A stretch of DNA of 64,000 nucleotides, taken from Microbacterium sp. SD291 (lineage in GTDB: Bacteria; Actinomycetota; Actinomycetes; Actinomycetales; Microbacteriaceae). The notes beneath the pieces were generated by a model that was not told the DNA's origin, did not search any database, and saw only the letters and a program-made list of their open reading frames with translations. The stretch is from positions 1-64,000 of the forward strand of contig NZ_JADIJR010000007.1 in assembly GCF_017355365.1 (NCBI RefSeq), given 5' to 3'. Made by a program: the position numbers and the translations under genes. Of this stretch, positions 2,870 to 34,244 are shown piece by piece (position 1 is the stretch's first letter; every line of letters begins with the position of its first letter).

Positions 2870-4825
2870 ATGTCTTCCTCGCCTTCATCGCAGAACTCGT
2901 CCCCGTCCTCCTCCCTCTCCACTCCTGCCGCCCTGTGGCGTCTGAAGCCGTTCGTCCGGCCGGTGATCTGGCGTCTCGCCGGCGGTGCGGCCAGCGCCCT
3001 CGCTGCGGCCATCATCGCGCTGATGATCCCGATCGTGCTCGAGCAGATCATCCGCGGCCCCGTGCAGACCGGCGCGATCGACGCGATCGCCTGGGGTGCC
3101 GCCGCCGTGTTCGGCCTCGCCCTCGGTGAGGCGCTCATGGTGTGGCTCCGTCGCCAGTTCGTGTTGAAGCCGGCCACCGAGGTCGAGTACCAGATGCGCA
3201 CCCAGCTCTACGCGCGCCTGCAGACGCTCCCGGTCGCATTCCACGACCGGTGGCAGTCCGGTCAGCTGCTCAGCCGCATGATGCAGGACATCGGCCTCAT
3301 CCGCCGCTGGCTCGCATTCGGCCTGGTGCTGCTCGTCGTCAACGTCCTGACGATCGTCATCGGCTCGGTGCTGCTGTTCCGCTGGCACTGGCTGCTCGGC
3401 GTGATCTTCCTGGTCACCGCGATCCCGCTGTGGATCCGCGGGTACCTGTTCGAGAAGCGGTACGGCGCACTGACCAGGCGCAGCCAGGACCAGGCCGGCG
3501 ACCTCGCGACCAGTGTCGAGGAGAGCGTGCACGGCATCCGCGTGCTGAAGGCCTTCGGCCGGGGCAAGCACGCGCTCAGCCGGTTCAGCCGCCAGGCCGA
3601 GACGCTGCGTGAGACCGAGATGAGCAAGGCCGGCGCGATCGCGTCGATCTGGTTCTGGCTCGACCTCATGCCGCAGATCGCGTTCGGGCTCAGCCTGATG
3701 TCCGGCATCTGGCTGATCTCGCAGGGCGCGATCGAGCTGCCCGAGCTGTTCGCGTTCTTCGCGATGGCGACGGTGCTGCGCTGGCCGATCGAGTCGATCG
3801 GCTTCCTGTTCTCCTTCATGCTCGACGCGCGGACGGCGACCGACCGCGTGTTCGACATCTTCTCCGAGACGAACACGATCACGGATCCGGCGAACCCGGT
3901 GCACATCGAGAGCCCGCGCGGCGAGCTCGCGTTCGAGGGTGCGCGCTTCCGCTATCAGGACGCGGGCGCACAGGAGCGCGACCTGCTCGACGGGATCGAC
4001 CTGGTGCTGCGCCCAGGCGAGACCATGGCGCTCGTCGGCCTCACCGGCAGCGGCAAGACGACGCTCACGACGCTTCCCGCTCGCCTGTACGACGTCACCG
4101 GCGGGCGCGTGACGCTCGACGGGGTCGACGTGCGCGACCTGCCGCTCGCGGAGCTGCGTCAGCACATCGCGATGGCGTTCGAGGACGCGACGCTGTTCTC
4201 GGCATCCGTCCGCGAGAACGTCCTGCTCGGCCGCGCCGACCTCGACATGCACAGCGAGGAGGGGGAGCGTGTGCTCCGGGAAGCGCTCGACGTCGCCCAG
4301 GCGGCGTTCGTCGACTCGCTGCCGGACGGTGTCGAGACGATCATCGGCGAGGAGGGTCTCAGCCTGTCCGGCGGCCAGCGCCAGCGCCTCGCCCTGGCGC
4401 GCGCCGTGGCCGCGAACCCGAAGGTGCTCGTGCTGGACGACCCGCTGTCGGCCCTCGACGTCGACACCGAGGCTCTCGTCGAGGAGGCCCTGCGGCACGT
4501 CCTGGCCGAGACCACGGCGATGATCGTCGCGCACCGTCCGTCGACCGTCGCGCTCGCCGACAGGGTGGCGCTGCTCGAGGCCGGTCGCATCACCGCGGTG
4601 GGCACGCACTCGGAGCTGCTGAAGTCGAGCCGCCACTACCGTCACGTGATCTCCAGCCTCGAGGCGGAGGAGGCCGCGCGGACGGGTGCGATCCCGATCA
4701 TCAGGGATGAACCGGACGACGAGGGCCGGAGCCCCGAGGCCGAGCACAGCCGGGTCCCTGAGCCTGCCGAAGGGTCGACCAGCTCGGCAACCCAATCAGA
4801 TCAGATGAAGGAGGTGCAGGCATGA
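2870..4825 (+). CDS. ABC exporter half-transporter, degenerate-site subunit
   Basis: A 651-residue type IV (B-type) exporter half: a Ser-rich N-terminus, six membrane helices (about residues 35-330) and a nucleotide-binding domain. Walker A is [12 protein letters not shown] near residue 388, the signature is the intact LSGGQ near 498, and Walker B is [12 protein letters not shown] near 521. The usual catalytic glutamate after Walker B is aspartate, so this subunit brings the non-catalytic Walker motifs of a heterodimer. The H-loop histidine is present (IVAHRPSTV). It probably pairs with the next gene, whose ATG overlaps its stop (ATGA), to export lipid-like or drug-like compounds; the substrate is unknown. 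The C-terminal tail contains a genomic repeat (see 4752-4780). The start is taken at the ATG after a weak GAGA site; nothing upstream fits better. Confidence 0.9.
4752..4780 (+). repeat. Dispersed 'CCTGAGCCTGNCGAAGGG' repeat inside a coding sequence
   Basis: GGTCCCTGAGCCTGCCGAAG followed by GGTCGACC matches the abundant intergenic repeat of actinobacterial genomes whose core is CCTGAGCCTGTCGAAGGG. Here it is read in frame as [10 protein letters not shown] (about residues 628-638) in the tail of the first exporter subunit, close to its stop codon. Confidence 0.65.
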
Positions 4826-6636
4826 GCTCCGCGATCACCGGAACCCGCAACGAGGACCGCTCGAACTACACCCGCGAGGAGAGCAGGGCGATCAGGCAGC
4901 GCTCGCTGCGACTGCTCGGCTCGCTCGTGCGCCCGCTGAAGCTGCAGGTGGTCCTCGCGGCCGTCGTGCTCGTCATCTCGACGGCGCTGCAGGTCGCGGG
5001 CCCCATCCTGATCAGCATCGGTCTCGACCGCGCGCTGCCTGCGGTCCTGAAGGACGCCGACTGGATGCCGACGCTGGTGATCGGCTTCGTCTACCTGTTC
5101 TCGGGGGCTGCGGCCGCCGTGCTCATCGCCTGGTACGTGATGATCGCCGCCCGCATCACCCAGGCGGTGCTGCTGGATCTGCGCAAGCGCATCTTCCTGC
5201 ACACGCAGCGGCTGAGCCTCGAATTCCACGAGTCGTACACGTCGGGCCGGATCATCTCTCGCCAGACCAGCGACCTGGACTCGATCCGCGAGCTGCTCGA
5301 CGGGGGTCTCAACAACCTGGTCTCCGGCGTGCTGTTCGGCGCCTTCACGTTCATCGCCCTGATCATCTGGGACTGGCAGTCGGGTGTGATCCTGGCGCTC
5401 GCGGGCATCCCGCTGTTCCTGCTGATGCGCTGGTTCTACAGCCGCTCCCAGCTGGTCTACCGCGAGTCGCGCGTGGTCAGCGCGAAGGTGATCGTGCAGT
5501 TCGTGGAGACCATGACCGGCATCCGCGCCGTCAAGGCGTTCCGCAAGGAGCCCCGCAACGACGCGACCTTCCAGAAGGTCGCCGGCGACTACCGCGACAT
5601 CAACCGTCGCTCGATGATGCTGTTCGGCACCTTCGAGCCCGGTCTGATGGGAGTCGCAGCCCTCACGCTCGGCCTGGTCGTGCTGTGGGGCGGCATCCGC
5701 GTCTCCGACGGCGTGCTGAGCGTCGGCGTGCTGCTGTCGGCCGTGCTGTACGTGCGGAACTTCTTCGCGCCGATGCAGGAGATCGCGATGTTCCTGAACT
5801 CCTACCAGTCGGCCACCGCGGCGCTGGAGAAGGTGTCGGGCGTGCTCGAGGAGCAGCCGACGGTGCCGGACCCCGCGACGCCGGTCGACCTGTGGGAGTC
5901 GCGCGGTGCCATCCGCTTCGACGGCGTCACGTTCGGGTACAACGGCGAGAAGACGATCCTTCCGGACTTCTCGCTCGACATCCCCGCCGGGCAGACGATC
6001 GCGCTGGTCGGCACCACCGGGGCCGGCAAGTCGACGCTGGCGAAGCTGATCTCGCGGTTCTACGACCCCACGGTCGGCCGGGTGACGCTCGACGGCGTGG
6101 ATCTGCGCAACCTGCACCCGAAGGACCTCCGCCGCGCGATCGTGATGGTCACGCAGGAGGCGTACCTGTTCAGCGGCACCGTGGCCGACAACATCGCGCT
6201 CGGCAAGCCCGACGCGACCCTGGACGAGATCAGGGCGGCGGCGCGCGCCGTCGGTGCCGACGGATTCATCTCGTCGTTGCCCGACGGGTACGGCACCGAT
6301 GTCAACAAGCGCGGCGGCCGGGTGTCGGCGGGGCAGCGTCAGCTGATCTCGTTCGCTCGCGCGTTCCTCGCAGACCCCGCGGTGCTGATCCTCGACGAGG
6401 CGACCGCCTCGCTGGACATCCCGTCGGAGCGGCTGATCCAGGATGCTCTGCAGACGCTGCTCAAGGACCGCACCGCGATCATCATCGCGCACCGCCTGTC
6501 GACGGTCGCGATCGCCGATCGCGTGCTGGTGATGGAGCACGGCCGGATCATCGAGGACGACTCGCCCCAGGCGCTGATCGGCGGCACCGGCAAGTTCGCC
6601 CAGCTGCACGCTGCCTGGCAGGAGACCCTGGTCTGA
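4822..6636 (+). CDS. ABC exporter half-transporter, catalytic-site subunit
   Basis: The 604-residue partner of the preceding subunit: six membrane helices over about residues 30-320, then an ATPase domain. Walker A is [12 protein letters not shown] near residue 396 and Walker B is [12 protein letters not shown] near 519 with the catalytic glutamate intact, but the signature is degenerate (VSAGQ instead of LSGGQ, near 499). The H-loop is [10 protein letters not shown]. Combined with the intact signature and E-to-D change of the first subunit, this gives exactly one competent and one degenerate ATP site, as in known heterodimeric exporters. It has a strong ribosome-binding site (AAGGAGG, 4808-4814) although it already overlaps the upstream stop. 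Confidence 0.92.
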
Positions 6637-25131: not shown

Positions 25132-26485
25132 GCGCGAACACCTTCCCGGGGTTGAGGATGCCGAGCGGATCGAACACGCGGGTGATCTGGCGCTGCAGCT
25201 CCCACTGATCGTCGCCCAGCTCCGCCGCCAGCCACCGGCTCTTCAGCGTGCCGATGCCGTGCTCTCCGGTGAGCGTGCCGCCGAGCGCGATCGCCGCGCG
25301 GAACAGCTCGTCGGCCGCGGCCCAGACGTGCTCCGGCGGCTCGGCGCCTTCGAAGATGAAATTCGGATGCAGGTTGCCGTCGCCCGCGTGCGCGACGGTC
25401 GGGATCGCCAGCCCGTACTCGCGCTCGATGCGCGCGATCTCGTCGAACATCGCCGGCATCGCGCTCCGCGGCACCGACACGTCTTCGATGAGAGTGGTGC
25501 CGAGTGCCGCCATCGCCGGGTGCATCGACCGGCGGACGGCGAGCAGCCGCTCGCCCTCCTCACGATCGTGCGACACCTGGGTCGCCCCGCCGTGGGCGCG
25601 CAGGATCGCCGCGATCGCGTCGGCTTCGACGGCTGCCGCCGGCCCGTCGGTCTGGATCGTCAGCTGCGCGCTCCCGGCGTCGGGGGAGGGAAGCGCGAGC
25701 AGCGAGGCGACGGCTGAGAGGCTCGCGGCATCCATCAGCTCCATGATCGCGGGCTGGATGCCCGCAGCGGTGACGGCAGCGGATGCCGCGGCCGCCGCGC
25801 GGACATCCGGGAACGTCGCGGCGATGGTGCAGATCGAGCCCTCGACGAGCCGCCGCAGCTTCAGGGTGGCTCCGACGACGACGCCCAGCGTGCCCTCCGA
25901 CCCGATCACCAGCGAGGTGAGATCGAGGCCGGTGACGCCCTTCACACTGCGGTGGCCGAGGTGCAGGAGCCGTCCGTCGGCAAGCACCAGGTCGACCCCG
26001 AGCACGGCATCGCGGACGACGCCGTACTTGGCGCAGAGCAGACCGCCCGCACCCGTCGCGATGTTCCCGCCGACGGTGGAGATGTCACGGCTCGCGGGAT
26101 CCGGCGCCCACCACAGCCCGTGCTCCGTGAGTAGGGCGTTGAGCTCGGCGTTCAGGATGCCGGGCTCGACCACGGCGAGGAGATCATCGGCACGGATCTC
26201 CCGCACCGCCGTCATCCGCCGGGTGGAGAGGACGATCTCGCCCTCGCCCCCGTTCGCCGCGCCCGCGAGTCCGGTGCCGGCGCCTCGCACGACGACCGGT
26301 GTCCTGGTCGCCGTGGCGATGCGCATGACCTGCTGAACCTGCTCCACAGTCTCGGCGTGCACGACCGCGAGCGGAGTACCGGGCGCGGCATGACCCGAGC
26401 GGTCGGCACGTGCGTCAGCGAGCGAGGCGGGAGTGGTGTCGACGAGCTCTCCGAGGGCGCGGACCAGCCGGTCGAGCGCGCTCAT
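25124..26485 (-). CDS. FAD-binding oxidoreductase, GlcD / D-lactate dehydrogenase type
   Basis: 453 residues of the vanillyl-alcohol-oxidase fold. The FAD domain has VVVRGAGTGLAGAANG near residue 65 and TVGGNIATGAGGLLCAKYG near 138 (PP-loop glycines). The C-terminal cap has the metal-site histidines in TVAHAGDGNLHPNF and ends with the signature GGTLTGEHGIGTLK...FDPLGILNPGKV. It oxidises a 2-hydroxyacid such as glycolate or D-lactate, passing electrons to quinone. No GlcE or GlcF partners are nearby, so a stand-alone enzyme is likely. The start overlaps the YrdB stop (ATGA) and the stop overlaps the Nudix start. Confidence 0.9.
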   Translation of the reverse strand: MSALDRLVRALGELVDTTPASLADARADRSGHAAPGTPLAVVHAETVEQVQQVMRIATATRTPVVVRGAGTGLAGAANGGEGEIVLSTRRMTAVREIRADDLLAVVEPGILNAELNALLTEHGLWWAPDPASRDISTVGGNIATGAGGLLCAKYGVVRDAVLGVDLVLADGRLLHLGHRSVKGVTGLDLTSLVIGSEGTLGVVVGATLKLRRLVEGSICTIAATFPDVRAAAAASAAVTAAGIQPAIMELMDAASLSAVASLLALPSPDAGSAQLTIQTDGPAAAVEADAIAAILRAHGGATQVSHDREEGERLLAVRRSMHPAMAALGTTLIEDVSVPRSAMPAMFDEIARIEREYGLAIPTVAHAGDGNLHPNFIFEGAEPPEHVWAAADELFRAAIALGGTLTGEHGIGTLKSRWLAAELGDDQWELQRQITRVFDPLGILNPGKVFAHA

Positions 26486-26853
26486 GACAGGGTGCGTCGA
26501 CCGCTGACCACTCCGGCGCCCACCGCGACCAGTGCGAACGCGAGGCCGATCAGCGGCTGATCCATCAGCCACCAGGCGGTGGTGACGCCGACGTAGATGA
26601 GCAGCTCGACGACCGCGCGGAGGAAGGGATGCAGCCGCAGCACGGGCTTCGGCGAGAGGAACAGCGCCCACACCAGCAGCACCACGATCGGCGCGCCAAG
26701 GCCCAGGACGATGTTCCACGGGAGCGGCCAGGTGGCGAAACCCCAGAGCGCGAGAGTGCCGATCGCTATCACCAGGACGACGGCGCGGACGACGTCCAGC
26801 GCGTTGATGTTCGGGCGTTCGACACCGGGGACGGAGGCGGGATCCTGGGACAT
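26482..26853 (-). CDS. YrdB/DUF2568-like small membrane protein
   Basis: 123 residues with four predicted membrane helices (VVLVIAIGTLALWGFATW, WNIVLGLGAPIVVLLVWALF, LRAVVELLIYVGVTTAWWLM, GLAFALVAVGAGVVSG). The charged loop FLSPKPVLRLHPFLRAVVE between helices 2 and 3 resembles the conserved loop of YrdB proteins. The function is unknown. It is the first gene of an operon with an oxidase and a Nudix hydrolase, overlapping the former by four bases. Confidence 0.75.
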   Translation of the reverse strand: MSQDPASVPGVERPNINALDVVRAVVLVIAIGTLALWGFATWPLPWNIVLGLGAPIVVLLVWALFLSPKPVLRLHPFLRAVVELLIYVGVTTAWWLMDQPLIGLAFALVAVGAGVVSGRRTLS

Positions 26854-26921
26854 GATCCCAGTCTATTCGGCGCCTGCGAAGGCGATCGGCCGCGTCGGAT
26901 CGGATCCCGGCGCTGAGCGAT

Positions 26922-28646
26922 CTAGAACGGGTTGTTGCAGCGCCCCTCGAGCTGCGGGATGTTCGCCAGGGATTCCAGTTCGATGGTGACGACCTCGCCC
27001 AGAAGGTCACCCGAGGCGTACGAGTAGGTCAGCTCCGCGCCCTCGCACACCTGCTGCAGGGTGGGCTCGATCTCGAACGAGGCCGCGCCTGTCGTGTCGA
27101 GCGCGACATCCTGGGAGATGCCGTCCACGAGCGCGCGGACGGTCGCGTCCGGTGCTCCCGCGAAGGCGATCGAATAGAGCACCGTCGGCGGCTGGCCGTT
27201 CGACACCGTCGCGGAGACGATGTCGAGAGCGGGCGCGCCCTCGGGCACGGATGCCTCTGGGCCCTCACCGCCGGGATCCTCGCCCCCGGGATCGACGGGG
27301 TCGACGGGATCCACGGGGTCGACGGGATCCACGGGATCCACCGGGTCGACGGGATCGACCGGCTCCTCCGGCGCGATGGTCTCGGTCGGCGGGGCGACGG
27401 CGGGTGCGGACTCAGGAGCGGGCGCCGGCGTCGGAGCCACGGCATCTGCGATCGGCGGGACGGGCTCAGGGTCGGGCTCGGGCTCGACCTGCTCGATGAC
27501 GACCGGTTCGTCGGCGCCCATCGACGGATCCGGTGCGATGTCCGATGAGATGGCGCCGGAATCCTGCTGTCCGGCGTTCGGCAGCGAGGCGGGCGAGCTG
27601 GCACCCGCGAGGCCGGGGATGATCGTGACGGCCGTGACGACTCCGGCGACGACCAGCGCTGCGGAGCCCGCTCCGACGAGCGCTCCGATGCCGCTCAGCA
27701 TCCCTCCGGAGCTCCCGCCTCCTGCGCCACCGCTCGCAGCCGAGCCGTAGGCGGTGGCGCCGGCGGCAGCGGTGCCGGTGACGCTCACGCCGCCTTCGAT
27801 CACTCCCGAGGGCATCGCCGCGAGCGCGACGATCGGAGTGCCGCCGCCCTGCAGCGCGGCGAGGTAGCCGGCGGATCCGCTGACCCCGAGGACGAGCGGC
27901 AGCAGCACGAGGACGAGCCTGCCGGAGACGTCCTTGGCCTCGGCGGCGACGATCATGCAGCGCGCGCACTCGTCGAGGTGTCGCTCGAGACGCGTGTGGT
28001 CGCGGGTGCTCAGGTTGCCGCGCGAGTACGCGCCGAGATGCTCGACCGTCCACTGGCAGTCCGACCCGGGAGCGGCGCTGCGCAGGTGCGCCTGGATCCA
28101 CGCCTCGCGCAGCCCCTCGCGGGCGCGGAATGCGAGCTGCGACACCGCGCCGGGCTTCATGCCGAGCAGCGGTGCCACCTCCTGCGGCTTCATCTGCTCG
28201 ATCTCGGTGTACCAGAGCACTTCCTGCCAGCGGGAGGGAAGACTGCGGAACGCCTGGGCGGTGAGGCTGCGGTCGAGCGCCTCGTTCGCGGCCTGCTCCG
28301 TGGTGTGCGGGTCGGCCACGGTGTCCAGCGCGTCGATGGTCGACTCGCGACGCGCGCGGCCCCAGGCCGCCGCGGTGTTGCGGATGCTGGTGAAGAGGTA
28401 CGCGCGGAACGAGCCGTTGGGGCCGCCGCCCTTGATGATCGCCTGGTAGATGCGGGTGTACGACTCCTGGACGAGGTCGTCAGGGTCGATCGAGGAGGTG
28501 ATGGAGCGTGCGACGGACATGCCGGACGGATAGTGCCTTCGCCAGAGCTCAGCGAACGCGTCAGCGTCGCCCGAGCGTGTGCGCAGCACAAGGTCGGCAT
28601 CGGCGATCATCTCGCCGGGAAGGGTGTTCTCGTGGTCCACAGTCAT
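26922..28646 (-). CDS. ECF-type sigma factor fused to zinc-finger anti-sigma-like membrane protein
   Basis: 574 residues. Residues 18-97 are sigma region 2 (FAELWRRHYPSGMSVARSI, DDLVQESYTRIYQAI) and 130-185 region 4 (LPSRWQEVLWYTEIEQMKPQ, then GMKPGAVSQLAFRAREGLRE). Then comes a zinc-finger anti-sigma motif with C197 and H223-xxx-C227-xx-C230 (HLDECARC), a hydrophobic helix at 243-264, a Gly/Ala-rich stretch and a second hydrophobic helix at about 318-345. A long Pro/Glu/Asp region follows with VDP repeated eight times (430-453), then a C-terminal Ig-like-looking domain ending QLEGRCNNPF. Sigma and anti-sigma are normally separate; ECF groups with such C-terminal extensions are known in actinobacteria. 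The topology of the tail is unresolved. An alternative start is M13 (MIADADLVLRTRSG). Its targets are unknown. Confidence 0.85.
   Translation of the reverse strand: MTVDHENTLPGEMIADADLVLRTRSGDADAFAELWRRHYPSGMSVARSITSSIDPDDLVQESYTRIYQAIIKGGGPNGSFRAYLFTSIRNTAAAWGRARRESTIDALDTVADPHTTEQAANEALDRSLTAQAFRSLPSRWQEVLWYTEIEQMKPQEVAPLLGMKPGAVSQLAFRAREGLREAWIQAHLRSAAPGSDCQWTVEHLGAYSRGNLSTRDHTRLERHLDECARCMIVAAEAKDVSGRLVLVLLPLVLGVSGSAGYLAALQGGGTPIVALAAMPSGVIEGGVSVTGTAAAGATAYGSAASGGAGGGSSGGMLSGIGALVGAGSAALVVAGVVTAVTIIPGLAGASSPASLPNAGQQDSGAISSDIAPDPSMGADEPVVIEQVEPEPDPEPVPPIADAVAPTPAPAPESAPAVAPPTETIAPEEPVDPVDPVDPVDPVDPVDPVDPVDPGGEDPGGEGPEASVPEGAPALDIVSATVSNGQPPTVLYSIAFAGAPDATVRALVDGISQDVALDTTGAASFEIEPTLQQVCEGAELTYSYASGDLLGEVVTIELESLANIPQLEGRCNNPF
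27288..27359 (-). repeat. Nine-base tandem repeat coding (Val-Asp-Pro)8
   Basis: Eight in-frame copies of a nine-base unit (GTCGACCCC, GTGGATCCC and variants) encode VDP. Copies differ at the wobble positions, so the array is not a fresh duplication. It forms a stiff acidic spacer in the sigma/anti-sigma fusion protein. Confidence 0.95.
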
Positions 28647-29016
28647 CCATCTGTTGCGGAGCGCAGGTGTGCCTCCACATGAAGAGACGCGTGACAGGGG
28701 TCTTCATCACGCGCTTTCTTCATTCTCTCCCGAATATCCCAGGGCAGGCCACCCCTGAGAGGAAATCCGTGGGAATCCTCAAAATCGGCAGAATCCCAGA
28801 TCCCGAGCCTGTTCCGTGACGATACCCGAAGATTCTCGAGGATTCTCGGCCGAGTCGCGTAATGATCGGCGCACTGCCCCGTCTCATCACTTAGAGAAAG
28901 CCGACGATTCCACCGGGGGGCGGAGTCGGAAGCGCCGGCGCACGGGGCAAGAGCGCCGGTCGGTGGATCGAGAGCCTCGGGGGAGGAGCTCCCGGCCACC
29001 GCTCTGACAGGGATGA
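28647..29016. other. Intergenic region upstream of the sigma-factor fusion
   Basis: About 370 bases with no convincing gene; a minus-strand open frame here has no recognisable content. It is less GC-rich than its surroundings. It holds a direct repeat GATTCTCG (28831 and 28841) and an inverted repeat of ATGAAGA/TCTTCAT in the 30 bases around 28672-28705. These are candidates for the regulatory region of the sigma gene, but I cannot assign a promoter with confidence. Confidence 0.4.
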
Positions 29017-29042
29017 GGCCGCCGATCTGGGGATCGGCGGCC
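29017..29042. terminator. Hairpin downstream of nagA
   Basis: GGCCGCCGATC (29017-29027) pairs exactly with GATCGGCGGCC (29032-29042) around a four-base loop, 22 bases after the nagA stop. No uridine run follows on the minus strand. Confidence 0.65.
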
Positions 29043-29064
29043 TTCCCCTCCGCCGTGGCCTGCC

Positions 29065-30228
29065 CTACCGGGCTCCAACCCAGACGCGAACGACCTGCAG
29101 CTGCGCATCCAGCAGCACCGCGTCACCGCTGAGACCGCGGCTCAGGCCTCCGATCTCGGCGCCGAGGCCGATCGCCCTCGCCGGCGTCCGCGTCAGAGCG
29201 CGCACGGCTTCAGGAAGCGTCGCGCCCGCGGAGACCGCCCTGCGCAGCGCCACATCCTGCGTGAGCGTGGAGCCTGCGATCGAGCCCGTGTCGTCCGCAC
29301 GCGCGACACCGTTCTCGACGGTCACGCTCACCGCCCCGAGATCGTAGTGGCCGTCCGCACTGCCGGCAGCGGCCATGGCATCGGTGACCAGTGCCACGCG
29401 GCCGGGGGCGGAGTCGAACAGCAGCTTGATCACCTGCGGGTCCAGGTGCACGTTGTCGGCGATCGCCTCGAGCACGACGCGGTGGTCGGCCGCGGCGGCG
29501 AGCACCGGACCAGGCGCGCGATGGTGGATGCCGTTCATCCCGTTGAAGGCATGTGTGAGGATCGACGCCCCTGCCTCGAAAGCGGCGGCCGCCATCGCGG
29601 CATCCGCATCGGTGTGCCCGACCGCCGCCGCTGCACCCGCGGCGACGATGCGCCCGATCGCGTCGAGTCCGCCCGGCAGCTCAGGGGCGATCGTCACCTG
29701 CCGGACGGTGCCGCGGCCCGCGTCGAGGAGCCGCTGGACGTCGGCCGCGACCGGCTCGCGCAGCAGTGAGGGCTCGTGCGCACCGTGGTGACCGGGGTCG
29801 AGGAAGGGGCCCTCGAGGTGGGAGCCGAGGATGTCGGCATCCGTCTCGCTCAGATCCGCGATCAGTGCCACGCTCCGGGCGAGATCGTCGAGCGAGGCGG
29901 TGACCAGAGACACCACTGCGCGCGTCGTCCCGTGCGCGCGATGCAGGGCTCTCGCGGTGCGGATCGCGTCGACGCCGTCGTCGAAGGCCAGCCCCGCTCC
30001 GCCGTGGCAGTGGATATCGACGAAGCCAGGGGCCAGCACCGCCCCCTCGCCGGCCACGGCGGCAGCATCCACGACCTCGTCGGCGGCGTCCCACTCCGAG
30101 CCGGTGCCGGTGGACACGACCCGGCCGTTCTCGAACCGGACCCAGGCGTCCTCCGTCGTCCGGCCCTCGTCGACGAGACGCGCCGAATGGATGACGACGG
30201 AACCCGTCGCTGTGGAATGGACGCTCAT
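29065..30228 (-). CDS. nagA: N-acetylglucosamine-6-phosphate deacetylase
   Basis: A 387-residue amidohydrolase that removes the acetyl group from GlcNAc 6-phosphate to feed NagB. Metal and substrate motifs in order are VDIHCHGG (HxH) near residue 72, SHLEGPFLDPGHHGAH near 137, VGHTDADAAMAAAAFEAGA, THAFNGMNGIHHR, and the catalytic Asp in ALVTDAMAAAG near 280. The start at 30228 overlaps the hexosaminidase stop (ATGA), so chitooligosaccharide or glycan hydrolysis and deacetylation are co-translated. Confidence 0.94.
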   Translation of the reverse strand: MSVHSTATGSVVIHSARLVDEGRTTEDAWVRFENGRVVSTGTGSEWDAADEVVDAAAVAGEGAVLAPGFVDIHCHGGAGLAFDDGVDAIRTARALHRAHGTTRAVVSLVTASLDDLARSVALIADLSETDADILGSHLEGPFLDPGHHGAHEPSLLREPVAADVQRLLDAGRGTVRQVTIAPELPGGLDAIGRIVAAGAAAAVGHTDADAAMAAAAFEAGASILTHAFNGMNGIHHRAPGPVLAAAADHRVVLEAIADNVHLDPQVIKLLFDSAPGRVALVTDAMAAAGSADGHYDLGAVSVTVENGVARADDTGSIAGSTLTQDVALRRAVSAGATLPEAVRALTRTPARAIGLGAEIGGLSRGLSGDAVLLDAQLQVVRVWVGAR

Positions 30229-31760
30229 CGATCGCTCCAGGGGATCTCGGGGGCCGGGTGGAAGCTGATCCCCTCAGCCTTCCACAGCGGCGCGAGTGCG
30301 CCGAGACGCTCGCGGAACGACTCCCAGGTGCGAGCCGGAGACTGCTGCGGTGACCAGGCCACCTCCGCGAGGGCGGCCGCTCGCGGGAAGACCAGCTGCT
30401 CGACGTCGTCGAAGGTGCGAGCCGTCTCGCTCCACAGCGGCGCCTCGATGCCGAGGATCGCGGCATCCGGAACCTCGAGGATGCCGGTGGGCTCCCAGTC
30501 GTACGCGGCGCGCACGTCGATGAACGCCGCCCAGGTGAGGCCGAGGGGGGAGTCCTCGGCGTACTTCATGTCGAGGTACGCGACGTTCGACGGCGACATG
30601 ATCAGCGCACCGCCTCGCGCCGTGAACCGAGCGGCCTCCTCGGCGTGCGCACCCGCCGGGGTCGTGCTGCCCCAGTACTGGCCGACCGTGCCCTCGGCGA
30701 TGTCCTCGGCCGAGCCCATCTCGTGCCAGGCGATCGGGACCTTTCCCGCCTCGACGACGATCGCGGTCGCCCGTGCGGCGAAAAGGTCGAAGTCGGCCTT
30801 CGGGGTGCCGAGCGATTCGTCGCCGCCGATGTGGATGTAGGGACCCGGAGTCAGCTCTGCGAGCTCGCGCACCACGTCGCGCACGAACCGGTAGGTGCGC
30901 TCGTCGTGGATGCGGACGCTGGAGTGCCCGACGCCCCAGCCCAGGTAGTTCTCGCCCGCGACCGGCAGCGGCTGGCCGAGGCGCTCGGATTCGGCGATGA
31001 GACTGTCGTTGAGAACGGGCGCCTCGACGAGGTCGGGGTATGCGACGCCGATCGCATGTGTGTGACCCGGGAGGTCGATCTCGGGGATCACGATCATGTG
31101 GCGGGATGCCGCGTATGCGACGATCTCGCGGTAGTCGTCCTTCGTGTAGAAGCCGCCGGGGTCGCCGCCTGCCGAAGTGCCGGAGGAGCGCTCCGTGAGC
31201 AGCGGCCAGGAGTCGATGTGGATGCGCCACCCCTGATCGTCGGAGAGGTGCAGATGCAGGTGGTTGAGCTTCAGGGCGCTGACGCCGTCGATGAACGCCT
31301 TGACGTCCGCGACCCCGAAGAAGTGCCGGGCGACGTCGAGCATGACGCCGCGGCGGGCGAAGCGCGGGGCGTCGGCGATGTCGGCTCGGAGGATCGCCCA
31401 GGTGCCGTCTTCGTCTTCGCGCAGGAGCTGCAGCAGCGTCTGCACGCCGTAGAAGAGGCCGGCCTCGTCGGCGCCGACGACCTCGGCCGTGTCTCCCACG
31501 GTGAGCGTGTAGCCCTCGGCGGCGGCCATGTCGGGATCGATGCGCAGGACGAGATCCCCGGAGGCGGGTTCGCCCTCGGCGGTGCGCTGTGCGGCGGTGG
31601 CGATGCGGATGCTGCTCCGACGCTCGACCGCGTCAGCGAGCAGGGTCGCGACAGCGGCGGCGCCGTGCACCCGAGTGGCCGCGGTGACCGGCATCCGTCC
31701 CTCGCCCGCCGTGGCGGAGACGGGCACCGGCACGAGCGGCAGCGAATGAGTAAAGACCAT
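30225..31760 (-). CDS. Beta-N-acetylhexosaminidase, glycoside hydrolase family 20
   Basis: 511 residues. An N-terminal GH20b domain (about 1-130) precedes the TIM barrel, which carries LNHLHLHLSDDQGWRI, IPEIDLPGHTHA and the catalytic pair D314-E315 in YIHIGGDESLG. The C-terminal part holds the aromatic substrate pocket (GIEAPLWSETARTFDDVEQL). It releases terminal GlcNAc/GalNAc by substrate-assisted catalysis. I see no signal peptide, so it should act on imported disaccharides such as chitobiose in the cytoplasm. The ATG at 31760 is preferred because TAGGTT lies exactly six bases upstream, which fits a leaderless start; a TTG two codons earlier is less likely. Confidence 0.92.
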   Translation of the reverse strand: MVFTHSLPLVPVPVSATAGEGRMPVTAATRVHGAAAVATLLADAVERRSSIRIATAAQRTAEGEPASGDLVLRIDPDMAAAEGYTLTVGDTAEVVGADEAGLFYGVQTLLQLLREDEDGTWAILRADIADAPRFARRGVMLDVARHFFGVADVKAFIDGVSALKLNHLHLHLSDDQGWRIHIDSWPLLTERSSGTSAGGDPGGFYTKDDYREIVAYAASRHMIVIPEIDLPGHTHAIGVAYPDLVEAPVLNDSLIAESERLGQPLPVAGENYLGWGVGHSSVRIHDERTYRFVRDVVRELAELTPGPYIHIGGDESLGTPKADFDLFAARATAIVVEAGKVPIAWHEMGSAEDIAEGTVGQYWGSTTPAGAHAEEAARFTARGGALIMSPSNVAYLDMKYAEDSPLGLTWAAFIDVRAAYDWEPTGILEVPDAAILGIEAPLWSETARTFDDVEQLVFPRAAALAEVAWSPQQSPARTWESFRERLGALAPLWKAEGISFHPAPEIPWSDR

Positions 31761-31766
31761 GAACAA

Positions 31767-31772: not shown

Positions 31773-31815
31773 CCCTGAGCCGCGTCATGGGCACACCGAA
31801 ATCCGCTATGCTCGT

Positions 31816-31893
31816 AACCGTCGCGACTGGCGTCTGGGTGGACTACCACCGGGGAGCGACTGACCACGGAATTCGACCGCGCGCCTGGGCCGA
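31816..31893 (+). ncRNA. ZTP (pfl) riboswitch controlling glyA-folD
   Basis: The leader contains the conserved pfl blocks in order and spacing: GACTGGCG (31825-31832), the P2 stem GGTGG-ACTA-CCACC, GGGGAGCGACTGA (31851-31863), a variable linker, and CCGCGCGCCTGGGC (31878-31891), which forms the pseudoknot half. ZTP riboswitches bind the folate-stress alarmone ZTP/ZMP and commonly precede glyA and folD, which are exactly the two genes that follow. A TATGCT at 31807-31812 is the likely -10. No uridine-tract terminator is seen before glyA, so control may act on translation. Confidence 0.92.
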
Positions 31894-31936
31894 TGGAAGC
31901 ACCCCTTTCGAATCCGTTGTCAGAGGAGCACGTCAC

Positions 31937-33211
31937 ATGACCGACCGTTACTTCAACGCCCCGCTCGCCGAGGTCGACCCCGAGATCGCCGAGGTGCTCG
32001 ACCGCGAGCTCAAGCGTCAGCAGACGTTCCTCGAGATGATCGCGTCCGAGAACTTCGTACCCGTCTCCATCCTGCAGTCGCAGGGCTCGGTGCTCACGAA
32101 CAAGTACGCCGAGGGCTACCCCGGCCGTCGCTACTACGGCGGCTGCGAAGAGGTCGACGTCGCCGAGGAGCTCGCCATCCAGCGCGCGAAGGACCTCTTC
32201 GGCTCCGAGTTCGCCAACGTCCAGCCCCACTCGGGAGCGTCGGCCAACGCCGCCGTGCTGCACGCGATCGCCCGCCCGGGCGACACGCTGCTCGGCCTCT
32301 CGCTCGACCAGGGCGGCCACCTCACCCACGGCATGAAGATCAACTTCTCCGGCCGTCTCTACGACATCGTCGCCTACGGCGTGAACCCCGAGACCTCGAC
32401 CATCGACATGGAGGAGGTCCGTCGCCTCGCCATCGAGCACAAGCCGAAGGTCATCATCGCCGGCTGGTCGGCCTACCCGCGCACGCTCGACTTCGCCGCC
32501 TTCCGCGCGATCGCGGACGAGGTCGGCGCGCTCCTCTGGGTCGACATGGCGCACTTCGCCGGCCTCGTGGCCGCGGGTCTGCACCCGAACCCCGTGCCCC
32601 ACGCGCACGTCGTCTCCTCGACCGTGCACAAGACGATCGGCGGCCCGCGCTCGGGCTTCATCCTGACCAATGACGCCGACATCGCGAAGAAGATCAACTC
32701 CGCCGTCTTCCCCGGCCAGCAGGGCGGCCCGCTCATGCACGTCATCGCGGCGAAGGCCACGGCGTTCAAGCTCGCGGCGACCCCGGAGTTCAAGGAGCGC
32801 CAGGAGCGCGTGCTGCGCGGTGCGGCGATCCTCGCCGAGCGCCTCTCGCACCAGGACGTGAAGGATGCCGGCATCGGCGTGCGCTCCGGCGGCACCGACG
32901 TGCACCTCGTGCTCGTCGACCTGCGCGACGCCGCGATCGACGGCAAGCAGGCGGAGGACCTCCTGCACGACATCCACATCACGGTGAACCGCAACGCTGT
33001 GCCGAACGACCCGCGTCCGCCGATGGTCACCTCGGGTCTGCGCATCGGCACACCGGCGCTCGCCACACGCGGGTTCGGCGACGCCGAGTTCACCGAGGTC
33101 GCCGACATCATCGCGCTCGCGCTGCTGCCCGGCGCCGACGTCGAGGGCCTCCGGGCTCGCGTGGACGCGCTCGCCGCAGGCTTCCCGCTGTACCCGGACC
33201 TGCAGCAGTAA
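31937..33211 (+). CDS. glyA: Serine hydroxymethyltransferase
   Basis: A 424-residue PLP enzyme interconverting serine plus tetrahydrofolate with glycine plus 5,10-methylenetetrahydrofolate. The cofactor lysine is K232 in [17 protein letters not shown]. Other landmarks are [12 protein letters not shown] near residue 35, [15 protein letters not shown] near 60, and [13 protein letters not shown] near 205. The start at 31937 follows GAGGAG (31923-31928) and gives the standard N-terminus; the in-frame sequence before it is the riboswitch RNA. Expression is expected to rise when ZTP accumulates, that is, when one-carbon folates run short. Confidence 0.96.
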
Positions 33212-33245: not shown

Positions 33246-33294
33246 GATTCGCGCGTGAGATCCCCGTCCGGCACGGGGAACTCACGCGCGAATC
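33246..33294. repeat. Long inverted repeat between glyA and folD
   Basis: GATTCGCGCGTGAG (33246-33259) pairs exactly with CTCACGCGCGAATC (33281-33294), and inside it CCCCG (33262-33266) pairs with CGGGG (33274-33278). The result is a 19-pair hairpin with one internal loop. It lies between two genes on the same strand, 72 bases before folD, and has no uridine tract. Confidence 0.75.
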
Positions 33295-33365
33295 GCGGTC
33301 TCGCTGCCGGATCGGGATCCCACACCGACGGCATCCGCCCCTCCCGCTCCCGAAAGGAACCTGAC

Positions 33366-34244
33366 ATGACCGCGAAGATCCTCGACGGCAAGGCCGCTGC
33401 AGCATCCATCAGGACGGAGCTGACCGAGCGCGTCGCCGCGCTGAAGGAGAAGGGCATCGTCCCCGGCATCGCCACCGTGCTCGTCGGGGCCGACCCGGCA
33501 TCGCAGCTCTATGTGGGCATGAAGCACCGGCAGTCGGAGGCGATCGGGATGAACTCGATCCAGCGCGAACTCCCGGCCGACGCCACGCAGGAGGACGTCG
33601 AGGCGCTGATCGACGAGCTCAACGCCGACCCCGGCTGCCACGGGTACATCGTGCAGCTGCCGCTGCCGAAGCACCTCGACACCGACGCGATCCTCGAGCG
33701 GATCGACCCGGCGAAGGATGCCGACGGTCTGCACCCGACCAACCTCGGCCGGCTCGTGCTGAACGTGAACAACCCGATCACGACGCCGCTGCCGTGCACG
33801 CCTCGCGGCGTGATCGAGCTGCTGCTGCGCAACGACTACGACCTGAAGGGCAAGCACGTCGTCGTCGTCGGCCGCGGTGTCACGATCGGGCGCCCGATGG
33901 GCCTGCTGCTGACCCGCCGCGACATCAACGCCACGGTCACGCAGGTCCACACCGGCACGCCCGACATGTCGCCGTACCTCCGTCAGGCCGATGTGATCGT
34001 CGCCGGCGCCGGCGTCAAGCACCTGATCCGCGCTGAGGACGTCAAGCCGGGCGCTGCGGTGCTCGACGTGGGCGTGACCCGCGAGACGGATGCCGAGACC
34101 GGCAAGAGCCTCGTCTTCGGGGACGTGCATCCGGACGTCGCCGAGGTCGCCGGCTGGATCTCACCGAACCCCGGCGGGGTCGGCCCGATGACGGTCGCGC
34201 TGCTGATGACGAACGTGGTCGAGGCGGCCGAGCGGCTGGTCTGA
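33366..34244 (+). CDS. folD: Bifunctional methylenetetrahydrofolate dehydrogenase/cyclohydrolase
   Basis: A 292-residue FolD, which oxidises 5,10-methylene-THF to methenyl-THF and hydrolyses that to 10-formyl-THF. The catalytic lysine region is [17 protein letters not shown] near residue 50, then [11 protein letters not shown] near 98, the NADP-binding [18 protein letters not shown] near 162, and the C-terminal [12 protein letters not shown]. The start at 33366 follows AAAGGAA; upstream in-frame sequence crosses the hairpin and is not coding. It works directly downstream of GlyA in one-carbon metabolism and probably shares its riboswitch-controlled transcript, unless the hairpin at 33246 ends it. 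Confidence 0.95.

Follow-up and report, generated by a model that had tools for sequence, protein, structure and literature searches.

Gene content of the locus

The window, the whole stretch of 64,000 nucleotides of Microbacterium sp. SD291 DNA that was analysed here, carries on its minus strand a gene for an ECF sigma factor that continues into a zinc anti-sigma domain, membrane segments, a Pro-rich linker and a C-terminal domain, and upstream of it two copies of a promoter-like element and a predicted divergent RNA (Table 1). The original prediction had joined a sigma factor, a zinc-finger anti-sigma motif, hydrophobic segments and VDP units in a single protein and this was borne out by Pfam, TIGR02937, Kyte-Doolittle and repeat analyses. 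The coordinates proposed for the gene were also correct, with minus as the coding strand; a plus-strand reading of 26922-28646 is interrupted by an internal stop. Sigma70_r2, Sigma70_r4_2 and zf-HC2 all match the protein above their Pfam cut-offs and TIGR02937 matches above its cut-off over residues 29-182 (E 6.4e-22). No Pfam match to sigma region 3 was found in the protein at E<=1, and it thus shows the ECF arrangement of regions 2 and 4 with region 3 absent.

Table 1 Features of the sigma factor locus, with positions in the window and residues of the encoded protein
Feature	Position	Strand	Details
ECF sigma factor with zinc anti-sigma domain, membrane segments, Pro-rich linker and C-terminal domain	26922-28646	-	574 aa
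Sigma-70 region 2, residues 34-95	28362-28547	-	Pfam PF04542, E 6.7e-8
Sigma-70 region 4, residues 131-177	28116-28256	-	Pfam PF08281, E 4.1e-6
zf-HC2 zinc anti-sigma domain, residues 197-230	27957-28058	-	Pfam PF13490; C197, H223, C227, C230
Hydrophobic segment 1, residues 244-262	27861-27917	-	Invariant P250 and G254
Hydrophobic segment 2, residues 329-347	27606-27662	-	
Pro-rich linker, residues 348-461	27264-27605	-	25% Pro over the first 120 residues counted
9-bp tandem array, eight VDP units	27287-27359	-	
C-terminal Ig/FN3-like beta-sandwich, residues 462-574	26925-27263	-	C534 and C570
Promoter-like element directed toward the sigma gene	28684-28710	-	Exact match, within inverted repeat
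Second, outward-facing copy of the element	28859-28885	+	1 mismatch
Predicted divergent RNA, conserved and covarying, several G-rich-loop hairpins	28880-29068	+	About 190 nt
DUF2568 protein, downstream of the sigma gene	26482-26853	-	
NagA-like amidohydrolase, upstream of the sigma gene	29065-30228	-	NagA by our reading
GH20 enzyme, upstream of the sigma gene	30225-31766	-	

Further downstream lie genes for a FAD-linked oxidase and a NUDIX protein, and the genes between 24715 and 31766 are all on one strand. In the flanks fetched for the best 80 of 516 related loci the NagA-like enzyme was matched in 45 loci, the DUF2568 protein in 43 and the GH20 enzyme in 37, and these neighbours hint at an amino-sugar link for the sigma gene. 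Beyond them an ordinary ZMP/ZTP riboswitch (Rfam RF01750, over its gathering score) occupies 31813-31897 on the plus strand, ahead of a glyA-like gene (listed as 31787-33211, its true start probably lying inside) and a folD-like gene (33255-34244), both named by eye.

Conservation of the fusion

A sequencing error hiding a stop between the sigma and zinc-finger parts had been named as the circumstance that would undo the prediction. This explanation is ruled out, as the protein is matched in 88 of 119 congeneric genomes (E<=1e-10) and the zinc motif is in frame with the sigma part in 81/81 proteins, taken from 80 named loci (the best 80 of 516) after proteins with a blastp score <100 were skipped; the fusion is therefore no sequencing artefact. 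The fusion of the sigma and anti-sigma partners is thus present as predicted. The prediction had also treated it as a departure from the usual partnership, and this part did not stand, the arrangement being the fused layout of Actinobacteria described for ECF48, ECF52 and ECF53 (PMC5826349, PMC8999054) and common among the relatives examined. At family level 77 of 199 genomes gave matches and at class level 121 of 246, both counts including matches to the sigma part only, with up to six matches in some family genomes. The best 80 of the 516 relatives belong mostly to Microbacterium and other Microbacteriaceae, together with Nocardiopsis and Pseudonocardiaceae.

Two fused sigma genes lie close together on one strand in L221 (genome G069; 1221-2984 and 3189-5357) and in L164 (1451-3565 and 3944-6052). 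In a single genome (L089 in G252, 1253-2320) the frame changes between the sigma and zinc parts, a change that resembles a local error more than a natural split. No unfused sigma/zinc pair was seen at the stand-alone sigma genes L092 and L093, neither having a same-strand zinc-motif ORF alongside in the stretch examined. A 26-codon ORF that overlaps the start of the sigma gene and ends at its ATG was not accepted as a gene, since in at least 3 of 14 aligned loci (L108, L109 and L142, judged by eye) its frame is lost through single-base differences in length.

The zinc anti-sigma domain

H223, C227 and C230 form an H-x3-C-x2-C motif with C197 as a fourth ligand-like residue. The motif had been predicted to follow region 4 directly and in fact lies 41-46 residues past it. 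HxxxCxxC is found inside a zf-HC2-like domain with PF13490 over its cut-off, as expected of a Class I zinc anti-sigma domain. In an alignment of 45 sequences (the window protein and sequences chosen from the best 80 of 516 confirmed loci) the ligand pattern C-x25-H-x3-C-x2-C is conserved, with H223, C227, C230, P250 and G254 invariant and C197 nearly so. Domains of this class are expected to inhibit by binding between sigma regions 2 and 4. An AlphaFold2 model of residues 1-267 had a pTM of 0.44, and with confidence this low no statement on the packing of the sigma and zinc parts is possible from it.

The ligand pattern raises the alternative that the zinc domain is itself the sensor, such that disulfide stress would oxidise the CHCC residues, zinc would be lost and the sigma part would be freed in place in the manner of RsrA, with the membrane part only positioning the protein. 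The four ligand-like residues share the CHCC pattern and the Cys-Cys spacing of RsrA (C197-C227-C230 compared with Cys11-Cys41-Cys44; PMC4960319), the N-terminal Cys ligand is linked there to redox sensing, and C197 is kept in at least 90% of the 45 sequences. However C197 is absent from some fused relatives (e.g. L034-L037) in which the remaining layout is intact, the redox hypothesis is described in the same source as confounded by other cases, and the long tail, if extracytoplasmic, would be left idle. We consider this alternative improbable.

Membrane segments and topology of the tail

The two hydrophobic segments of the original prediction were confirmed by Kyte-Doolittle analysis at residues 244-262 (2.08) and 329-347 (2.25), together with a weaker third stretch at 272-290 (1.49). 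In order to consider on which side of the membrane the tail may lie we looked at the residues following segment 2 in 145 proteins including that of the window, a set reduced from 159 different proteins by removing 7 without a zinc motif or room after it and 7 with a weak segment 2 or a short tail. Tail cysteines were absent from 85 of these, present in even number in 57 and in odd number in 3, counts drawn from related sequences that are not independent and from some proteins cut at contig ends. Tail Cys pairs occupy different places among the relatives. The odd cases are L104, L040 and L176, and in L104 the composition of the tail suggests a frame shift. Across the 145 proteins the tail contains 13.4% D/E as against 3.8% K/R. 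Because the cysteines are paired and the tail is acidic an extracytoplasmic position is suggested for the tail.

Two full membrane crossings would bring the tail back inside, and an outward tail therefore needs either segment 1 to cross incompletely or a third crossing at 272-290. The loop before segment 2 is without K/R in 94 of the 145 proteins. Several distant relatives (L072, L074, L168 and L170) do carry K/R in this loop, which suggests an inside position for the loop; segment 1, in which a Pro and a Gly are invariant, would then be partial or re-entrant. In the AlphaFold2 model of residues 1-267 this segment is broken, with low confidence, into a pair of short helices.

The array predicted to code eight VDP units was recovered by a tandem-repeat search with a 9-bp period, 8.1 copies and 81% matches, and by translation. 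At least 5 exact tandem copies of a 2-8-aa unit occur in 49 of the 145 proteins (PT, PVD, PGTD, TDP and others), PT (9) and PVD (8) being the commonest, and both the unit and the length of the linker vary between relatives. The VDP array is thus one among many interchangeable Pro-rich spacers.

AlphaFold2 modelled the 113 residues of the C-terminal domain from 39 sequences as a beta-sandwich (pLDDT 92.3, pTM 0.82). In the VIA list used for structural ranking the best match was an Ig-like domain of the SiiE adhesin (2yn5_B, Z 9.7, rmsd 2.0, 80 aligned residues), followed by a second SiiE match (2yn3_D, Z 8.9) and then many tied Ig/FN3 folds near Z 7. The domain had no Foldseek match at E<=0.001 and, taken alone, no Pfam family at E<=0.05, and there was no NPCBM-like fold among the 50 VIA matches listed, which is no evidence either way. 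The last domain had been described as ending with a conserved-looking Cys; C570 is indeed present five residues before the end, and it matters as a pair with C534 rather than as a conserved end, the pair being retained in near relatives (e.g. L005, L099 and L030) and not family-wide.

A promoter-like element upstream of the sigma gene

Alignment of the upstream DNA of 14 Microbacterium loci revealed two strongly conserved blocks, which contain two inverted copies of one two-part motif, the far copy exact in 14/14 loci and the near copy in 11/14. In the direction of the gene the near copy reads GTRATGAA-N13-CGTCTC. ECF promoters are usually two-part, with 21 nt between the starts of the blocks and CGTC in the second block. 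The element likewise has block starts 21 nt apart and a second block that contains CGTC.

Among the 119 congeneric genomes this pattern had 55 exact sites in 33 genomes, against 1 site for a reversed control pattern. Most (43/55) lie <=800 nt upstream of a sigma gene, 13 of them directed toward the gene at 38-113 nt and 30 away from it at 159-483 nt, where distances run to the first aligned residue and true values may be up to about 45 nt shorter. A sigma gene match is present in 33/33 of the genomes with exact sites (lists compared by eye), and the exact element occurs in 33 of 88 genomes with the sigma gene and in 0 of 31 without it (Fisher p 1e-5); as the element was derived from these loci, both its nearness to the gene and this split are partly built in. 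The sites far from a sigma gene are on their own independent evidence, and few in number. There are 12 of these and 9 precede a correctly directed ORF by 6-138 nt, with start codons of our choosing; of the others one is inside an ORF (L286), one probably so (L285) and one has no clear target (L217).

The far-site targets comprise homologous small membrane proteins (L216, L284), a 50-aa membrane peptide (L279), two members of one family of 150-156 aa (L283, L280) and proteins with a signal peptide recognised by eye, which carry a SpaA domain (L281), PKD and laminin-G domains (L282), an Ig-like match below cut-off (L218) or no domain match (L219). The small membrane proteins behind the element in genomes G107 and G014 are homologous (41-44% over 63 aa). 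A 150-aa protein follows the element in G014, in G071 and, with 1 mismatch in the element, in the genome of the window itself, with 59% over 149 aa and 40% over 128 aa. This family has no Pfam match over cut-off, and since its ORFs begin 6-7 nt past the element their mRNAs are perhaps leaderless. The gene in the window's own genome is on contig C28 (L289, about 3576-4028), with its homologues in L283 and L280.

The only exact site in the genome of the window is that ahead of the sigma gene. Four sites have 1 mismatch, these being the outward copy at the locus, the site before the 150-aa gene on C28 (7534-7560), one inside an ORF (C23) and one that by eye has no target (C13). With <=2 mismatches there were 27 sites and 12 for the control, counts that are not useful. 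Two sites with 2 mismatches, neither counted, lie 80 nt ahead of an ORF (C56) and inside an ORF (C88).

A forward reading of the motif, GAnGAGACG-N15-CATnACGC, matched exactly at 53 sites spread over 32 of 119 congeners (2 for the control), with 48/53 near the gene. It was dropped in favour of the reverse complement, since under the latter the far sites are oriented toward ORFs. A scan of 26400-29200 for sigma-70-type promoters found nothing, which is expected for an ECF promoter yet offers no support either. Ahead of one Streptomyces-like gene the best match, with a loose pattern, had 3 mismatches at -175 and was not taken as support.

We propose that the element is the promoter of this sigma factor. 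The alternative is that another regulator or sigma factor binds it, or that the near copy acts as an RNA hairpin. The element was found by conservation alone, the window's own genome has other sigma factors (three weak matches), and the near copy sits in an inverted repeat whose predicted fold is better than that of shuffled sequences (z -2.75, with 2/200 shuffles as good), so that a hairpin in RNA or an operator could account for its conservation. However its spacing and CGTC block are typical of ECF promoters, and the element recurs at far places before partly homologous ORFs, where a hairpin has no role. The presence of a sigma gene in every genome with exact sites likewise speaks against this alternative, and ECF autoregulation is described as common (PMC5826349). 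On this evidence we regard a different reader of the element, or a hairpin, as unlikely though a serious contender, and keep to the reading of the element as this sigma factor's promoter.

A predicted divergent RNA

Downstream of the outward copy of the element lies a conserved region, reaching at its far end the stop of the NagA-like gene, which we predict to be a transcribed RNA on the plus strand. RNAalifold was run on 14 sequences, those of the window and the closest of 27 sequences with the outward copy, and gave -81.1 kcal/mol with a covariation term of -3.2 on the plus strand. A reading on the sigma strand was less supported (-61.6, covariation term +0.45) and was set aside. One terminator-like site was found on the sigma strand at 28916-28901 where 0.5 were expected, which is undecisive for the strand of the RNA. 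Changes on both sides that preserve pairing were seen in 13 of 52 pairs compared with 7.1 (sd 1.6) in shuffles, 0/500 of which were as high; slid versions of the alignment gave 2-5 such pairs, a control that leans toward the predicted fold as the structure was derived from the same alignment.

With a covariance model 37 of 119 congeners yielded 43 matches at E<1e-4, and 43/43 of them lie <=800 nt upstream of a sigma gene and divergent to it. The search ran with stricter filters under which weak matches can be lost, and it returned 13 weaker matches, those in G002 and G077 overlapping the locus on the other strand and the other 11 lying elsewhere. Tandem double copies of the RNA occur in L103, L106, L109, L142, L296, L301, L305 and L307, and in L103, L106, L109 and L142 each copy has its own outward element. 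Rfam gave no match at E<=0.1 in 26400-29200 and none there at gathering in a scan of the whole window; on L100, L103 and L109 it returned only a sub-threshold asX1 match overlapping the L103 RNA (29.9 vs 70 bits). A search of mainly open-access literature found no paper on the element, the divergent RNA or a fused sigma factor of Microbacterium.

Proposed mechanism and significance

The fusion, its domains, the conserved element with its places and the covarying fold are apparent from comparison of the sequences. What we infer beyond them is autoinhibition, an outward tail, proteolytic release, a sigma factor that reads these elements and production of the RNA. Our preferred reading, which we hold to be probable, is that of a one-protein switch combining autoinhibition by the zinc domain at the membrane, release by proteolysis and autoactivation through the element. 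The protein would be made inactive at the membrane with its sigma part and zinc domain in the cytoplasm, the latter holding the sigma part inactive beside the membrane, and the Pro-rich linker with its VDP repeats would carry the Ig-like domain outside as a sensor. A cell-wall or surface cue sensed there would be passed inward and proteolysis would free the sigma part, which would then bind GTRATGAA-N13-CGTCTC promoters including its own, giving positive feedback, and would also turn on the structured divergent RNA as well as a limited number of surface, membrane and unknown genes.

How such a factor reaches its promoters could also be explained without cleavage, by a shape change that lets the sigma part recruit RNA polymerase to promoters while still tethered to the membrane. 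No cleavage site is apparent from this analysis and conformational release is also mentioned for ECF52 (PMC5826349). However tethering would be expected to restrict access to promoters, and for IutY, another fused sigma factor, release is proteolytic (PMC8999054). We take proteolysis to be the most likely route of release, in line with what is reported for IutY and has been proposed for ECF52, where a sigma-only truncation of SCO4117 retained some effect on development (PMC5826349, PMC8999054); a tethered, uncleaved factor we consider quite improbable, and we retain the switch released by proteolysis.

More tentatively, and with rather less confidence than in the switch itself, we suggest a sigma-plus-RNA module of Microbacterium-type bacteria, in which the promoter type of a self-inhibited membrane sigma factor would drive its own gene and a dedicated RNA back to back, with the RNA acting alongside the sigma factor and the Ig-like tail serving as a surface sensor. 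If so the RNA could act as feedback on the sigma mRNA, on the NagA-like and GH20 genes or on mRNAs of surface proteins. The fused layout is already known from Streptomyces and what is new is the predicted promoter signature and the conserved divergent predicted RNA. Such fusions are frequent among the Actinobacteria that we examined, yet SCO4117 is the only ECF52 member that we found described as characterised (PMC5826349). A sharp element with recurring targets makes activation of the fused protein testable, and if the conserved RNA linked to the sigma gene holds, switches of this class would gain an RNA component. Should neither element nor RNA hold, an ordinary, well-conserved relative of a known class remains.

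Relationship to known fused sigma factors and RsrA

ECF52, exclusive to Actinobacteria according to PMC5826349, is defined there by a sigma factor, zinc finger, transmembrane segment(s) and Pro-rich extension in one protein, and the definition includes a C-terminal carbohydrate-binding domain (smart00776/NPCBM). The window protein has the sigma, zinc finger, hydrophobic segments and Pro-rich extension of this layout. Pfam found no NPCBM match in the protein or in its C-terminal domain alone, and NPCBM was found in 4/4 Streptomyces-like orthologues scanned. Because ECF52 is defined with the carbohydrate-binding domain we do not file the window protein as ECF52 proper. Some ECF52 and ECF53 proteins carry glycosyl hydrolase and carbohydrate-binding domains (PMC10766802), so that variety of the tail is already known.

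Reciprocal best matches link the window protein to the Streptomyces-like gene L094:6388-8340 (2.1e-60 into genome G371; 1.0e-58 back, against 3.5e-7 for the next gene of the window's own genome). The latter has sigma and NPCBM matches over cut-offs, with region 4 and zinc slightly under theirs. Its neighbours, read in L094 out of L094-L098, are a TetR-type gene and a pyridine-nucleotide oxidoreductase, and atrA is also a TetR-type gene. This fits SCO4117, which adjoins atrA (PMC5826349), and the source genus of L094 is probably Streptomyces.

In a tree of 51 selected sequences, in which very long outgroup branches were flagged by the program and SCO4117 itself was left out, the window protein groups with Microbacterium. 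Six Streptomyces-like rows, of which one was checked for an atrA-like neighbour and four for NPCBM, form their own clade (100/100) nested in a 23-row non-Microbacteriaceae clade (99/98) that excludes the window, and two stand-alone sigma genes fall among the Microbacteriaceae rows. By its sequence the window protein is a variant outside the SCO4117-type clade, and by its layout it should work like ECF52.

SCO4117 of Streptomyces coelicolor resembles the window protein in having sigma regions 2 and 4, a zinc domain, membrane segment(s), a Pro-rich extension and a further C-terminal domain. In contrast the window protein has an Ig/FN3-like domain in place of NPCBM and NagA-like and GH20 neighbours, its locus has a predicted divergent RNA, and its element is unlike the promoter motif proposed for SCO4117, CSGYN-17-SRHA, which is itself unsettled in print (PMC5826349). 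ECF48 and ECF53 are by description alike in their C-terminal zinc-finger fusion and one or two transmembrane helices, as is IutY of Pseudomonas putida (ECF243) in the fusion of sigma factor and membrane anti-sigma part (PMC8999054), although IutY belongs to siderophore cell-surface signalling in Pseudomonas. RsrA, whose ligand pattern the zinc domain shares, is a separate protein of 105 aa, whereas the zinc domain of the window protein is fused to its sigma factor and linked to the membrane.
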